Shown here piece by piece: positions 5,833 to 9,620 of a DNA stretch of 35,050 bases (positions within the stretch are counted from its first letter, which is position 1; every line of letters starts with the position of its first letter). This DNA is from Alphaproteobacteria bacterium (GTDB lineage Bacteria; Pseudomonadota; Alphaproteobacteria; UBA9219). Made by a program: the position numbers and the translations under genes. The notes beneath the pieces were generated by a model. That model did not search any database. It had not been told where the DNA came from and saw only the letters and a program-made list of their open reading frames with translations. Where the stretch lies: positions 1-35,050 of the forward strand of contig WREW01000012.1 of the NCBI GenBank assembly GCA_009779135.1. Direction: 5' to 3'.

Positions 5833-6845
5833 CGCTTTTTGTTCTTTCCCAAGCGGCTTTGGATGATGTTTTGCAAAAACATGCCATGTTTCGCGCAGCG
5901 CGCATGGGCGGGGAGCGCGCGCAGCTTGCCCATTATGATCTGCGCGGCATGGATTTTGCCGGACGCGATCTTTGCCATGCTGATTTCAAGGGCGCTTGTC
6001 TGGATCGTGCTGATTTTTACAAGGCGCGGCTTGATTATGCGTCTTTTTCGGGGGCTTGTTTGCGGCAGGCGCAGATGACCAAAGCCTCTTTGGTGCGCGC
6101 GGATTTGAAAAATGCTGATCTGAGCGGCGCGCTTTTGCGTCAGGCCGATATGACGGATGCCGAGATGCAGAAATGTTTTTTGAATGAAGCTAATCTTCAA
6201 GGGGCCAAGCTGGTGCGCGGGCAGTTGCGGGATGCTTGTTTGCGCGGAATCTATGGCGCGGATTGTCTTTTCAGCCTTTGCGATGTAGGCGGGTGCGATT
6301 TTTCCGATAGTCTTATGGATTGCGCCGTCATCAATATGACAGCGATTGACAGGCCCTTGACCACACAAAAAATATTTGTGCTTTCGCGCGATGCTTTGCA
6401 GCAGCATGAAATATGGCTCAAAAGCACAGGCGCCAAGGGCAGACGCTTTGTTCTGGATCAAGTTTTCGGCGAAGGGCTTGCGCTGGCCAAAAGCTATCTT
6501 AGCCTTATGCATGCGCGCGGCGCCCGTCTTGCGGGGGCGGATTTTTCGGACTCGCAGCTTCAGGCTTCGCACTGGCAGGGCAGCGATCTGCGTTTTTCCT
6601 GTTTTGCGCGCGCTGATCTGCGCGGCAGTGATTTTACGGCCGCGCGTTTAAACGGCGCTGATTTTCGCGGGGCCAGACTTTCTTCTTTTGACGGTGTGGG
6701 TAAAAAAAGCGTGTTTGCGCAGGCTTCCTTGCGTTATGCGCGGTTTGAAGGGGCGGATTTGCGGCAGGCGGATTTTACGGGCGCCGACCTTACGGAGGCG
6801 CAGTTTGATGAGGCGCCAACGCAGGAAAAAAGGAAGGCCGGATGA
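5829..6845 (+). CDS. Pentapeptide-repeat protein with two repeat modules
   Basis: Product of 338 residues. Repeats of the A(D/N)LxX/ADFxx type build a right-handed quadrilateral beta-helix. Module 1 spans about 36-165 (DLRGMDFAGRDLCHADF...). Module 2 spans about 232-325 (ARLAGADFSDSQL...). Each is preceded by a similar cap. Residues 4-35 (FVLSQAALDDVLQKHAMF..GER) correspond to 183-210 (FVLSRDALQQHEIWLKSTGAKGRR), which suggests an internal duplication. A segment without repeats (about 166-230) joins them. The start codon overlaps the LD-carboxypeptidase stop and the stop overlaps the mutL start, both as ATGA. Some pentapeptide proteins (Qnr, MfpA) mimic DNA and bind gyrase. Most have no known role, so no function is assigned. 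Confidence 0.88.
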   Translation: MTLFVLSQAALDDVLQKHAMFRAARMGGERAQLAHYDLRGMDFAGRDLCHADFKGACLDRADFYKARLDYASFSGACLRQAQMTKASLVRADLKNADLSGALLRQADMTDAEMQKCFLNEANLQGAKLVRGQLRDACLRGIYGADCLFSLCDVGGCDFSDSLMDCAVINMTAIDRPLTTQKIFVLSRDALQQHEIWLKSTGAKGRRFVLDQVFGEGLALAKSYLSLMHARGARLAGADFSDSQLQASHWQGSDLRFSCFARADLRGSDFTAARLNGADFRGARLSSFDGVGKKSVFAQASLRYARFEGADLRQADFTGADLTEAQFDEAPTQEKRKAG

Positions 6846-8656
6846 GCATTCGCCGCTTGCCTGAACATCTTGTCAACCAGATTGCTGCGGGCGAGGTGAT
6901 TGAACGTCCCTCGGCTGCGCTTAAAGAGCTTTTGGAAAATGCTCTTGATGCCGGTGCGACGCAGATTGAAATCATGCTGCGCGAAGGCGGGCAGAGTTTT
7001 ATCGCCGTGACCGATAACGGCCAAGGCATGACGGCACAGGATCTGGAGCTTGCGGTTGAAAGGCATGCCACGTCAAAACTTCCTGACGGCGATCTTTGGC
7101 ATATTAAAAGCTTTGGTTTTCGCGGCGAGGCGCTGCCTTCCATCGGCGCGGTGGCGCGTCTTAAAATAACATCGCGCAAAAAAGATGCGGATGAGGCCTT
7201 TAGCATCAAGATCGAAGGCGGGCAGCTTTCTCCGCTTAAACCGGCGGCGCTTTCTTGCGGCACCATTGTGGAAGTCAGCGATTTGTTTTTCGCCACGCCG
7301 GCACGGCTGAAGTTTCTTAAATCCGTGCGCGCGGAATCACAAGCGGCGCGTGATGTGGTGGACAGGCTTGCGATGGCGCATCCTTATGTCACCTTTGTTT
7401 TAACGGAAGATGACCATAAGCCGGTGCGGTATGAAGCTGCGCCCGCTTTGCTTGAGGGAAAAGATGGGTTGCGCGCGCGTCTGGCGGGCGTTCTGGGGCA
7501 GGTCTTTGTTGAAAATGCGGTTTATTTTGATATGGAGCGCGATGGATTTTCGCTTTACGGCTATGCGGGCCTTCCCACCTACAACCGCGCCACAAACCGC
7601 CAACAATATCTTTTTGTCAATGGCCGTCCGGTGAAAGACAAGCTTCTCTTGGGAAGTTTGCGCGGCGCTTACGGGGATTTGATACCGGTGGGACGCCATG
7701 CGGCCGTGCTTTTGTTTTTGACGGTTCCTTTGGAGGAGGTGGATGTGAATGTTCATCCCACCAAGGCCGAAGTGCGTTTTCGTGATGCAAGCAAGGTACG
7801 CGGGCTTGTTGTGAGCGCGATCCGCCAAGCGCTTTCCTCAGCCGCACAATTAACGACCAGCACGCTTGCGCCGGAAATGCTGCGCAGGCTCAAACCCGAA
7901 ACCTATGCCGATTATGCGCAAAGCGGGAGTTTGCGGCCCGTTGGGGTCGAGGCCCGAGGGTTTTCGGAAAATCTGACGGGCAGCAGCAGGCAGCAGGCGT
8001 TTTTGCTCGGTGCGCAGACAGCGCCTTTGCAGCCTTTTGCGCGTTCCACGCAGAGCGTTTCTCCCGCGCAGCCTTTGGGGCGGCTGGGCGCTGCGGTGGC
8101 GCAGATTTATAAAACTTTTATCGTGGCGCAGACGGACGACAGTCTTATTCTTGTCGATCAGCATGCCGCGCATGAACGCATTGTTTATGAAGGCATGAAA
8201 AAAGAACTTTCGGTGCATGGCGTAAAGCGGCAGATCCTTTTGATTCCTGATATTATAGAAATGCCGGACGGATCAGGCGCAAGGCTTTTGGCTGTGGCAG
8301 AGGATCTTGCAAGCCTCGGGCTTGTGATTGAGCCTTTCGGCGCGTGCGATGTTCTGGTGCGCGAGGTGCCTGCTTTGCTCGGGCAGACGGACACAAGGGC
8401 CCTTTTGCATGATCTGGCCGAAGAGCTTTTGGAGCTTGAGAGCGTCAAAACGCTTGAAGACAGGCTTTTGGCTTTGTGCGCGCGCATGGCTTGTCACGGC
8501 AGCGTGCGCGCGGGACGGGTGCTTCATATAGATGAGATGAATGCCTTGCTGCGCCAGATGGAAAACACGCCTGCCGCCGGTCAATGCAATCATGGGCGAC
8601 CGACTTATGTCGCGTTGAGCTTTGAGGATTTGATGCGGTTGTTTGATCGGGGGTAG
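6842..8656 (+). CDS. mutL: DNA mismatch repair protein MutL with endonuclease motif
   Basis: Product of 604 residues. MutL links mismatch recognition by MutS to strand incision. The GHKL ATPase motifs are intact: KELLENALDAGA (28-39; Glu29 and Asn33), DNGQGM (58-63) and GFRGEALPSI (92-101). A Pro/Gln/Ser-rich linker runs from about 340 to 415. The C-terminal domain carries the metal-binding endonuclease motif DQHA(x)2E(x)4E at 439-450 (DQHAAHERIVYE). It also has CHGSVRAG (551-558) and CNHGRP (582-587). MutL should therefore nick DNA itself, as in organisms without MutH. It is translationally coupled to the pentapeptide gene by an ATGA overlap. A long palindromic element follows at 8665. Confidence 0.96.
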   Translation: MSIRRLPEHLVNQIAAGEVIERPSAALKELLENALDAGATQIEIMLREGGQSFIAVTDNGQGMTAQDLELAVERHATSKLPDGDLWHIKSFGFRGEALPSIGAVARLKITSRKKDADEAFSIKIEGGQLSPLKPAALSCGTIVEVSDLFFATPARLKFLKSVRAESQAARDVVDRLAMAHPYVTFVLTEDDHKPVRYEAAPALLEGKDGLRARLAGVLGQVFVENAVYFDMERDGFSLYGYAGLPTYNRATNRQQYLFVNGRPVKDKLLLGSLRGAYGDLIPVGRHAAVLLFLTVPLEEVDVNVHPTKAEVRFRDASKVRGLVVSAIRQALSSAAQLTTSTLAPEMLRRLKPETYADYAQSGSLRPVGVEARGFSENLTGSSRQQAFLLGAQTAPLQPFARSTQSVSPAQPLGRLGAAVAQIYKTFIVAQTDDSLILVDQHAAHERIVYEGMKKELSVHGVKRQILLIPDIIEMPDGSGARLLAVAEDLASLGLVIEPFGACDVLVREVPALLGQTDTRALLHDLAEELLELESVKTLEDRLLALCARMACHGSVRAGRVLHIDEMNALLRQMENTPAAGQCNHGRPTYVALSFEDLMRLFDRG

Positions 8657-8664
8657 GGCTGTGT

Positions 8665-8766
8665 TGTCATTGCGAGGAAAGTCGGCCGTAGCCGGCTTGA
8701 CGCGGCAATCCCTGCAACATCGCCGAGATTGCCGCGTCGGGCCTTGCGGCCCTCCTCGCAATGACA
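8665..8766. repeat. Palindromic repeat element A with cloverleaf folding
   Basis: TGTCATTGCGAGGA (8665-8678) is the perfect inverse of 8753-8766 (14 bp). Inside it, AAGTCGGC (8679-8686) pairs with GCCGGCTT (8691-8698) around CGTA, with one G-T mismatch. GACGCGGCAATC (8699-8710) is the perfect inverse of 8727-8738 (12 bp). GGGCC (8739-8743) pairs with GGCCC (8748-8752) around TTGC. The four helices make a complete four-arm fold of 102 nt. It sits between the convergent genes mutL and nadC and is followed by TTTTT on the plus strand, so it may also terminate mutL transcription. It resembles the dispersed TGTCATTGCGAGG-type palindromes seen in many proteobacteria (from memory, not checked). Confidence 0.88.
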
Positions 8767-8777
8767 GTTTTTGGGGG

Positions 8778-9620
8778 TCACAGAGCATCCAGACCAATAT
8801 CGAGGGTTTTGGCGCTGTGGGTTAGGGCGCCGATGGAGATGCGATCTACGCCGGTGGCGGCCACATCATGGACATTGTCCAGCGTGATGCCGCCTGAGGC
8901 TTCGCTGATTAAACGCTCGTTGATGCGGGTGACGGCTTTGTGGAGATTTTCGAGACTCATATTATCAAGCAGAATCATGTCCGGTTGTATGTCCGCGGGA
9001 AGGGCTAAAAGTTCATCAAGCTGCTCGAGCGTATCAACCTCAATTTCAATTTTGATTTTATCGCTTTTCATGGGGCGCACGCGGCGCAGGGCTTCTTGTA
9101 CCGAGCCTGCAAGCGCAAGGTGGTTGTCTTTGATTAAAACAGCGTCATAAAGGCCAAAACGATGATTGACGCCGCCGCCCATGCGCACCGCGTGTTTTTC
9201 AAGGGCGCGTAAATTGGGGGTGGTTTTGCGCGTGCAGCAGATGGAAGCTTTATAAGGCTTGACGGCCTGAACATAGGCGTTTGTCAGCGTGGCAATGCCG
9301 CTTAGATGGCAAAGAAAGTTTAGCGCTGTGCGCTCGGCTGCGAAAATGGCGCGCGCGTTGCCCTTGATCGTGGCGATAACGCTTGAGGGCGTAAGTTCGG
9401 CGCCGTCTTGCTGTGCGGCTTCGAATTGAATGGTGGGGTCTAAAAGAGAGAAAGCCAGCCGCGCGGCTTCAAGTCCGGCCAAGATCCCCGCTGTCCGCGC
9501 GCATAATTGGCCTTGCCAGAGCAGGGTTTCGTCAAACAGGGCTTTGGATGTAATATCGCCCTGCTGCCCGAGGTCTTCCGCAAGCGCGGCGCGGACGGTT
9601 TTTTCTATAGTGTCTGTCAT
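8778..9620 (-). CDS. nadC: Nicotinate-nucleotide pyrophosphorylase (quinolinate phosphoribosyltransferase)
   Basis: Product of 280 residues. It converts quinolinate and PRPP to nicotinate mononucleotide, CO2 and pyrophosphate, the third step of de novo NAD synthesis. Family motifs are all present: ERTALNFLCHLSGIAT, TRKTTPNLRALEK, GGGVNHRFGLYDAVLIKDNH, IEIEVDTLEQL, DMILLDN and EASGGI. These include the Arg, Lys and His residues that bind quinolinate. The start ATG overlaps the nadB stop by ATGA (9617-9620), so the two are translationally coupled. It is the last gene of nadA-nadB-nadC, with element A just beyond its stop. Confidence 0.97.
   Translation of the reverse strand: MTDTIEKTVRAALAEDLGQQGDITSKALFDETLLWQGQLCARTAGILAGLEAARLAFSLLDPTIQFEAAQQDGAELTPSSVIATIKGNARAIFAAERTALNFLCHLSGIATLTNAYVQAVKPYKASICCTRKTTPNLRALEKHAVRMGGGVNHRFGLYDAVLIKDNHLALAGSVQEALRRVRPMKSDKIKIEIEVDTLEQLDELLALPADIQPDMILLDNMSLENLHKAVTRINERLISEASGGITLDNVHDVAATGVDRISIGALTHSAKTLDIGLDAL

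Follow-up and report, generated by a model that had tools for sequence, protein, structure and literature searches.

The window, by which we mean the whole stretch of 35,050 nucleotides analysed here, carries mutL on the forward strand (positions 6842 to 8656; Pfam MutL_C, 1.7e-40) and, convergent with it, nadC on the reverse strand (positions 8778 to 9620; NCBIfam TIGR00078, 1.6e-95). An element at positions 8665 to 8766 is located between the stop codons of the two genes, 8 nt from that of mutL and 11 nt from that of nadC. An earlier note, made from the sequence alone, had placed here a palindrome that starts just after mutL and forms a cloverleaf of four helices (14, 8, 12 and 5 bp); its coordinates, its position behind mutL and all four helices were right. 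The anatomy of the element as an inverted dimer of the repetitive palindrome (REP) type, and the GIY-YIG gene described below, are additions to that note.

Sequence, folding and a comparison of copies resolve the element into two TGTC-tagged palindromic units in inverted orientation, which together can form the cloverleaf. On the forward strand the order is TGTCATTGCGAGG, hairpin, GACGCGGCAATC, spacer, GATTGCCGCGTC, hairpin, CCTCGCAATGACA. The left outer arm TGTCATTGCGAGG (8665 to 8677, + strand) consists of the tag TGTC and the start of the unit stem, ATTGC, and is supported by exact genome copies of the 12-mer GTCATTGCGAGG. It is followed by apical hairpin A (8678 to 8698, + strand), of the long type and 21 nt long here, which rests on the RNA fold and on paired changes among copies, and by the inner arm GACGCGGCAATC (8699 to 8710, + strand), whose GCAAT pairs with the ATTGC of its own unit if the unit folds alone. 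A semi-conserved central spacer, CCTGCAACATCGCCGA (8711 to 8726, no strand assigned), found in both orientations among the copies, leads to the second unit on the reverse strand, with its inner arm (8727 to 8738, GATTGCCGCGTC on the + strand), apical hairpin B of the short, 15-nt type (8739 to 8753; fold and copy comparison) and right outer arm (8754 to 8766, CCTCGCAATGACA on the + strand; exact arm matches). The whole window contains only two exact arms, both in this element.

Folding the forward strand as RNA recovered the cloverleaf as the minimum-energy structure, at −73.2 kcal/mol compared with −46.4 ± 3.4 for shuffled sequences (z −7.8; 0 of 200 shuffles as good), while the reverse strand folded as DNA gave z −9.6, again with none of 200 shuffles as good. 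The outer stem has 14 bp within the element (15 with one flanking U-G pair), hairpin A 8 bp, the central stem 12 bp plus three inner pairs, and hairpin B 5 bp. The cloverleaf is not the sole fold, because a single long hairpin, the RNA centroid, is almost as stable (−72.8); cloverleaf and linear stem are both possible. Among 33 full-length copies, the named structure was paired in 93.1% of cells (91.6 in shuffles) and contained 36 double-change cells, compared with 15.0 in shuffles (reached by 0 of 500), and it scored above all six slid versions. Thirty-five of these 36 cells fall in the two apical hairpins. Covariation was uninformative for the outer stem, because 11 of its 14 pairs never vary and none shows a double change. 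Neither pairs changed on both sides nor further pair types exceeded chance among these copies, the observed values being reached by 189 and 254 of 500 shuffles, respectively.

The strong stem is followed by GTTTTT, and a terminator scan reported no site at the element, though its loop limit may have missed one. An Rfam search of the window returned tRNA only. In 29 relatives' loci (L070 to L098), no nadC match was found within up to 1.5 kb on either side of mutL; two of them (L070 and L098) carry other palindrome types behind mutL, beginning GTCATCCCCGCG and GTCATTCCCGCG. Within the first 700 bases of the window, positions 277 to 675 hold five imperfect 27-nt direct repeats at a spacing of 87–102 bp.

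A genome-wide search found 154 exact occurrences of GTCATTGCGAGG (73 + 81) in the 1.55-Mb genome and none of the reversed pattern. Because the arm is present 154 times, the element is not a single-copy terminator. A covariance model built from the 33 copies gave at least 107 hits on the two strands, corresponding to at least 55 distinct full-length places. In the stretches around the first 100 listed arms, allowing up to two mismatches, we parsed 44 paired elements, of which one nested duplicate was dropped to leave 43, together with 26 arms that stood alone; a second batch of stretches raised the number of paired elements parsed to 61 (L424 was omitted). Inverted dimers with the tags outward predominate. 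One pair of copies shares 101 identical bases although the flanks are unrelated. The earlier note had suggested a mobile palindromic element rather than only a terminator, and had named a single copy without conservation in relatives as the outcome that would refute this. That outcome is excluded by the 154 arms, the presence of the arm in relatives and the occurrence of the unit in many phyla. The mobile-element reading itself is supported, as far as sequence allows, because of the 154 arms against 0 for the reversed pattern, the at least 55 full-length places and the 101-base identical pair in unrelated flanks, although movement was not observed. A role in termination or at mRNA ends, as a side effect, is not excluded.

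Both neighbouring genes were called for 39 copies, of which 19 are flanked by convergent genes, 17 by co-directional and three by divergent ones, compared with about 16 convergent pairs among 113 other adjacent gene pairs. For 34 of 43 copies, a neighbouring gene has its called 3′ end no more than 50 bp away, and none of the 43 lies inside a called gene; these counts come from a home-made gene caller and are hence approximate. As to target-site duplications, 3-bp direct repeats were found at 0 of 43 copies, with 0.45 expected. Four of the 43 are short forms of 42–47 bp (C1:37469, C6:10644, C6:41413 and C14:109), made of the two outer arms around one hairpin.

Hairpin lengths in the 33 full-length copies combine one short (14–15 nt) with one long (20–21 nt) hairpin in 27 cases and two short ones in six, and never two long ones. 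The short-long pairing looks as if the two ends had distinct roles. Alternative arms, TCACCCGCGAGG and TGTCATTGGCAGG, occur in six stretches of the same genome (L014, L034, L038, L059, L068 and L054, on contigs C1, C4, C5, C13, C19 and C11), and in one copy the TGTCATTGGCAGG arm comes with a matching inner GGGCGCCATC, as if element types had exchanged arms. C-tracts or A-tracts often stand ahead of TGTC on both strands (CCCC in 32 of 85 flanks), which could mean that such tracts are preferred as targets or that they belong to the element without having been recognised as such.

Every copy consists of two inverted units of the form TGTC-ATTGC-GAGG-(hairpin)-GACGCG-GCAAT-C, and the same unit appears in relatives as CGTC-ATTGCGAGGAGGCC..GGCCGACGCGGCAAT-CCA. 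The arm is present in 18 of the 39 genomes of our relatives sample, own genome included, which has the most arms of all. A search of public genomes for the strict pattern TGTCATTGCGAGG..GACGCGGCAATCTC gave at least 116 stretches, and among the names in their titles are Patescibacteria, Planctomycetota, Clostridiales, Nitrospirae, Chloroflexi, Mucilaginibacter, a Rickettsia and others. Outside its hairpin, the unit is identical across many bacterial phyla.

The closest known repeats are the CGTC REPs of Di Nocera et al. (2013, PMC3733652). In the part of that paper available to us, they are described as having tags CGTC, TGTC or CCTC, stems starting with AT, unpaired tails that are mostly CCA and dimers chiefly of the HH kind, as occurring mostly in Alphaproteobacteria, as identical with dRS3 and with rickettsial RPE-4/RPE-6, and as elements that 'apparently lack a dedicated transposase', GTAG-type REPs being linked to RAYTs. 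Measured against this partial description, the element agrees in its tag (TGTC at both outer ends, CGTC in relatives), in its AT-starting stem (ATTGC/GCAAT in each unit), and in forming inverted dimers that are intergenic and lie mainly behind genes. It differs in that CGTC REPs have a stem of 8–9 bp with a loop of 4–5 nt, whereas our unit has a 5-bp basal stem, internal mismatches and an apical hairpin of 14–15 or 20–21 nt, and in that their tail is mostly CCA, whereas CTC or CCC follows GCAAT in this genome and CCA is found in several relatives. Because stem and loop sizes and tail depart in this way, we classify the unit as a CGTC REP variant and not, as far as the accessible text defines them, as a member of CGTC-1 to -4. 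A further difference is that the same text reports these repeats without a transposase association, whereas we find an association with a GIY-YIG gene.

Other systems share less with the element. GTAG REPs and REPINs are likewise palindromic, non-autonomous inverted dimers whose putative cognate enzyme, a small nuclease, is encoded at another place in the genome, but their tag is GTAG and their enzyme a RAYT (HUH), while here the tag is TGTC, the genome has no Y1_Tnp match and the enzyme is of GIY-YIG type. Rickettsial palindromic elements have many copies in frame inside genes, in contrast to 0 of 43 inside called genes here. MITEs resemble the element in being short, non-coding, dispersed and ended by inverted repeats; unlike them, it shows no target-site duplication, implicates no DDE transposase and is structured over nearly its whole length.

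Frame clustering of the first 80 of the at least 116 unit loci revealed two protein families present in four loci. One is a small GIY-YIG protein located 0–133 bp from a unit in each of the four; the other, ABC-transporter-like, lies 148–3439 bp away. The source genome has two PF01541 matches (E ≤ 0.001), a 659-aa UvrC-like frame and a stand-alone gene of 97 residues at C5:63186-63479. This stand-alone gene starts 10 nt after a full element and is directly followed by a unit ending at C5:63535. Of 92 units detected in 202,578 bases of the genome, 86 have the TGC stem, the same type that flanks this gene, although the bases analysed were chosen around TGC arms and are biased accordingly.

The stand-alone protein matches PF01541 at 7.1e-16 (58.7 bits, cut-off 22.6). 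Residues Y8, Y19, R29, H33, E66 and K70, which we take to include the GIY-YIG catalytic residues, are invariant over 41 aligned proteins, own gene included (two of the 78 subfamily genes were left out of the reference list). Its best PDB sequence match is UPF0213 (1zg2, 2.3e-5), and its predicted structure is a plain GIY-YIG domain (pLDDT 91). By VIA-align this model came closest to Slx1 chains (91–95 of 97 residues aligned, Z 6.3–7.7), with At-HIGLE (7.0), UPF0213 (6.9) and I-TevI also near. No chain reached Z 8 in VIA-align, a level below which the tool calls matches common, and Foldseek found no PDB match at E ≤ 0.001, the best being UPF0213 at 1.4e-3. The enzyme thus shares its domain with UPF0213/YhbQ, Slx1 and I-TevI, with Slx1 nearest by VIA-align; according to structure entry titles, Slx1 cleaves branched DNA.

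Since GIY-YIG genes lay near units in four loci and own gene between copies, we counted enclosure systematically. A gene was called enclosed if each of its sides had, no further than 220 bp away, an inward-facing unit of the form GTCAT-xyz ... zyx′-ATC, the two units agreeing in triplet. We used 39 genomes (own and 38 relatives) and a second set of 20 unit-bearing genomes from other groups, reached via named records and therefore selected for holding the unit. The relatives set gave 143 PF01541 matches, from which 90 loci were read and 89 counted, the rest being UvrC-type or other frames and short fragments; the unit-bearing set gave 69 matches and 30 loci read, of which 21 counted as small and nine, with L266, served as UvrC-type controls. 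A 236-aa frame (L295) was left out of the small-gene set. The loci that had first suggested the link (L119, L158, L175, L181 and L102) had been picked via units and were not counted as such; three of their genes were found again by the family searches and counted once (L301 is L119, L306 is L175, L359 is L102).

Enclosure was confined to one subfamily, which is separable by score from other small GIY-YIG genes (at least 107 compared with at most 88). Thirty of its 78 genes were enclosed by inward same-stem units (25 of 67 in own genome and relatives, five of 11 in the unit-bearing genomes), and 52 of 78 had at least one inward unit. Enclosure was found for 0 of 32 other small GIY-YIG genes (0 of 22 and 0 of 10), 0 of 30 Y1_Tnp loci, 0 of 10 UvrC-type loci and 0 of 1057 pseudo-gene windows in the same loci, with any inward unit at one, three, one and 22 of these, respectively. 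The contrast with the pseudo-gene windows is overstated, because these often lie in coding DNA, and the other small GIY-YIG genes are the fairer control. Fisher values likewise overstate certainty, because genes rather than events were counted and many are related.

A motif-free test, which asked for an exact inverted match of at least 13 nt between 160-bp flanks, was met by 51 of 77 subfamily genes (L355 had too little flank), compared with four of 30 other small GIY-YIG genes, 0 of 625 windows and 0 of 77 shuffled flanks. With longer flanks, three of 20 Y1_Tnp loci met it (eight of 30 loci were left out and two of the remaining 22 lacked enough flank). REP-like palindromes account for many of the matches, and some of these palindromes are of types without an initial GTCAT. 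The association was replicated in the best 30 loci, from 30 genomes, of a search in 299 genomes across the phylum (169 with a match): 26 of the 30 had an inward unit, 10 a same-stem pair and 16 an inverted match, compared with three pairs and no inverted match in 648 windows. No inward GTCAT-type unit was found at 26 of the 78 subfamily genes, some of which have other inverted palindromes and some none. Two loci (L272 and L348) carry differing triplets on the two sides. In five of the 10 genomes of the relatives sample with at least 10 TGC-type arms (G002, G003, G025, G033 and G036), our set, which relies on drafts, contained no TGC-flanked GIY-YIG gene.

Stem triplets tend to group with enzyme lineage. 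Six triplets occur among 52 labelled genes, and on a tree of all 78 proteins they require 18 changes, compared with 31.6 when shuffled (0 of 200 as low). The 12 TGC-stem enzymes form one side of a branch among the 52 labelled rows, with one unlabelled gene (L367) among them, although support for this grouping is only 28 and the alignment has 88 columns for 78 rows. Their sources are own genome, its genus and order, Patescibacteria, Parcubacteria, Nitrospirae, Oscillospiraceae, Pumilibacter and Mucilaginibacter. TCC and CCC also cluster above shuffles and GCC weakly so, while CCT and GCT, with three rows each, do not. Own enzyme is most similar (57–60%) to TGC-stem enzymes of Nitrospirae and Patescibacteria, and reaches at most 55% within its own genus.

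We then compared gene-bearing forms with each other and with related gene-free sites. In two gene-bearing copies from one genome (L351 and L358, 79.5% identical), the shared sequence runs from CAGGCG to CGCCTG, the outer ends of the inverted repeats; in a pair from another genome (L349 and L356), homology ends at the unit on the right and about 18 bp further on the left. In Azospirillum lipoferum 4B the GIY-YIG gene is located between sufB and sufC with inverted dimers on either side, and it is absent from this site in A. ramasamyi, A. oryzae and strain B510. Among Sphingobium records, tblastn detects the gene in six, and one more matches the whole site at the DNA level; four close records are without the gene, and two of these four show at the same place a lone palindrome composed of both outer ends of the gene-bearing form. 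In Sinorhizobium, the gene is present at the gltA-lpxB site in strain Ak57 and missing there from K101, which carries such a gene at another location. Sequence comparison alone thus shows the gene-bearing form to be present or absent at the same site among related plasmids of Sphingobium, Azospirillum and Sinorhizobium. The exact junctions could not be fixed, because the gene-free sites differ in intergenic DNA.

Four of 10 records from a plasmid collection (L388, L390, L393 and L394) have same-stem inward units within 220 bp; a Rhizobium tumorigenes record has no unit and a Photobacterium record distant units only. L388 is a Neisseria gonorrhoeae locus with TCC-stem units, which we took for dRS3. 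It proves little, because dRS3 repeats are very common in N. gonorrhoeae. The Sinorhizobium meliloti Ak57 locus (L387) also has, immediately upstream of its complete GIY-YIG gene, a second copy that is truncated, with a unit after each, and ten Rhizobium phage records (H34 to H43) have a GIY-YIG frame under a tblastn match beside a lysozyme-like annotation.

Could the element instead be a bidirectional terminator, or a stabiliser of mRNA ends, which the host has selected and which simply exists in many similar versions? The frequency of convergent neighbours, the closeness to called 3′ ends, the absence from called genes and the GTTTTT behind the stem of the window copy all fit such a role. 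The terminator scan did not detect it (within its loop limit), and dozens of copies that are alike down to spacer and hairpins, two of them over 101 bases, in a family whose unit spans many phyla would be unexpected for convergent terminators, so that we give this explanation very little credence. It is just as hard for us to believe that the repeats are spread in trans by a tyrosine transposase of the RAYT kind, or another transposase, with the GIY-YIG link due to hitch-hiking. RAYTs are tied to GTAG-type REPs (PMC3733652, as far as available), 16 of the 20 unit-bearing genomes of other groups contain a Y1_Tnp match, and three of 20 Y1_Tnp loci have inverted matches in their flanks. Against this, own genome has no Y1_Tnp match, although it has the most arms of the 39 sampled and the same search was positive in five of 14 control genomes, and none of 30 Y1_Tnp loci elsewhere is enclosed by a same-stem pair. 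We therefore rejected a RAYT as mobiliser, a rejection that does not extend to each of the other transposase families.

GIY-YIG domains occur in homing endonucleases. Alternatively, then, the GIY-YIG gene could be a parasite, a homing-type nuclease that cuts existing palindromes so that break repair places a copy of its gene there, the repeats themselves owing their spread to something else. This alternative is real, because a lone palindrome, the target or deletion scar it would lead one to expect, is present in two of the four gene-free Sphingobium plasmids and because the four short forms in own genome have the same make-up. An NCBIfam group I intron endonuclease model also matches, although its 22 bits fall short of the cut-off (56). 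Rfam, however, gave nothing at gathering score in 16 GIY-YIG loci, so that no intron was seen; the spread of the repeats is left without an enzyme, as there is no Y1_Tnp match in own genome; and homing alone does not explain the tens of dimers that share the stem type of the flanks of own GIY-YIG gene. We regard it as unlikely, though it deserves to be kept in mind.

Our preferred reading, which we think probable, is that the element is a non-autonomous CGTC-type REP whose autonomous form is a gene of about 97 residues for a GIY-YIG nuclease between inward same-stem units, the nuclease being inferred to spread the dimers. At the level of sequence, the comparisons establish the anatomy, the copy number, the subfamily-specific enclosure, the match of stems on both sides, the clustering of stems with enzymes and the presence or absence at given sites. 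The association of repeat and gene is thereby demonstrated; mobilisation by the enzyme is inferred, since no enzymatic activity or movement was observed. In the proposed mechanism, the nuclease, whose model is nearest to Slx1 and UPF0213, would recognise a hairpin or cruciform made by the units, the natural substrate being a dimer extruded as a cruciform or folded on the lagging strand. It would cut near the TGTC/CGTC tag, and host repair or replication would then copy the dimer into a new intergenic site just behind a gene. Acting in trans, the product of the stand-alone gene at C5:63186-63479 would serve all members of the TGC-stem family in this genome, the copy in the window among them.

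The element belongs, as a variant, to a repeat class already known; what is new is the GIY-YIG link. The literature searched, among the matches listed and with subscription journals and preprints outside its reach, contained no link of GIY-YIG to REPs, palindromic repeats or dRS3; a search for the arm sequence gave, among the matches listed, titles unrelated to repeats. We lean towards a new class of bacterial mobile element, in which an Slx1-like GIY-YIG gene sits between structured palindromes, its gene-free dimers are the CGTC REPs (dRS3 of Neisseria included), its lineages are matched to their stems and travel across phyla, and cruciform or hairpin cutting takes the place of a transposase reaction. 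The small GIY-YIG enzyme may be the long-missing engine that spreads this repeat class. If true, the link would provide a concrete, testable candidate for the mobilisation of CGTC REPs, a question left open in the accessible part of PMC3733652, and would explain why the repeats take the form of inverted dimers. Alongside the HUH RAYTs, the palindromic repeats abundant in bacteria would then have a second kind of enzymology, based on a structure-selective nuclease, and the many small genes that are as a rule annotated merely as 'GIY-YIG nuclease family protein' or 'excinuclease ABC subunit C' would, as a large family, acquire a meaning.
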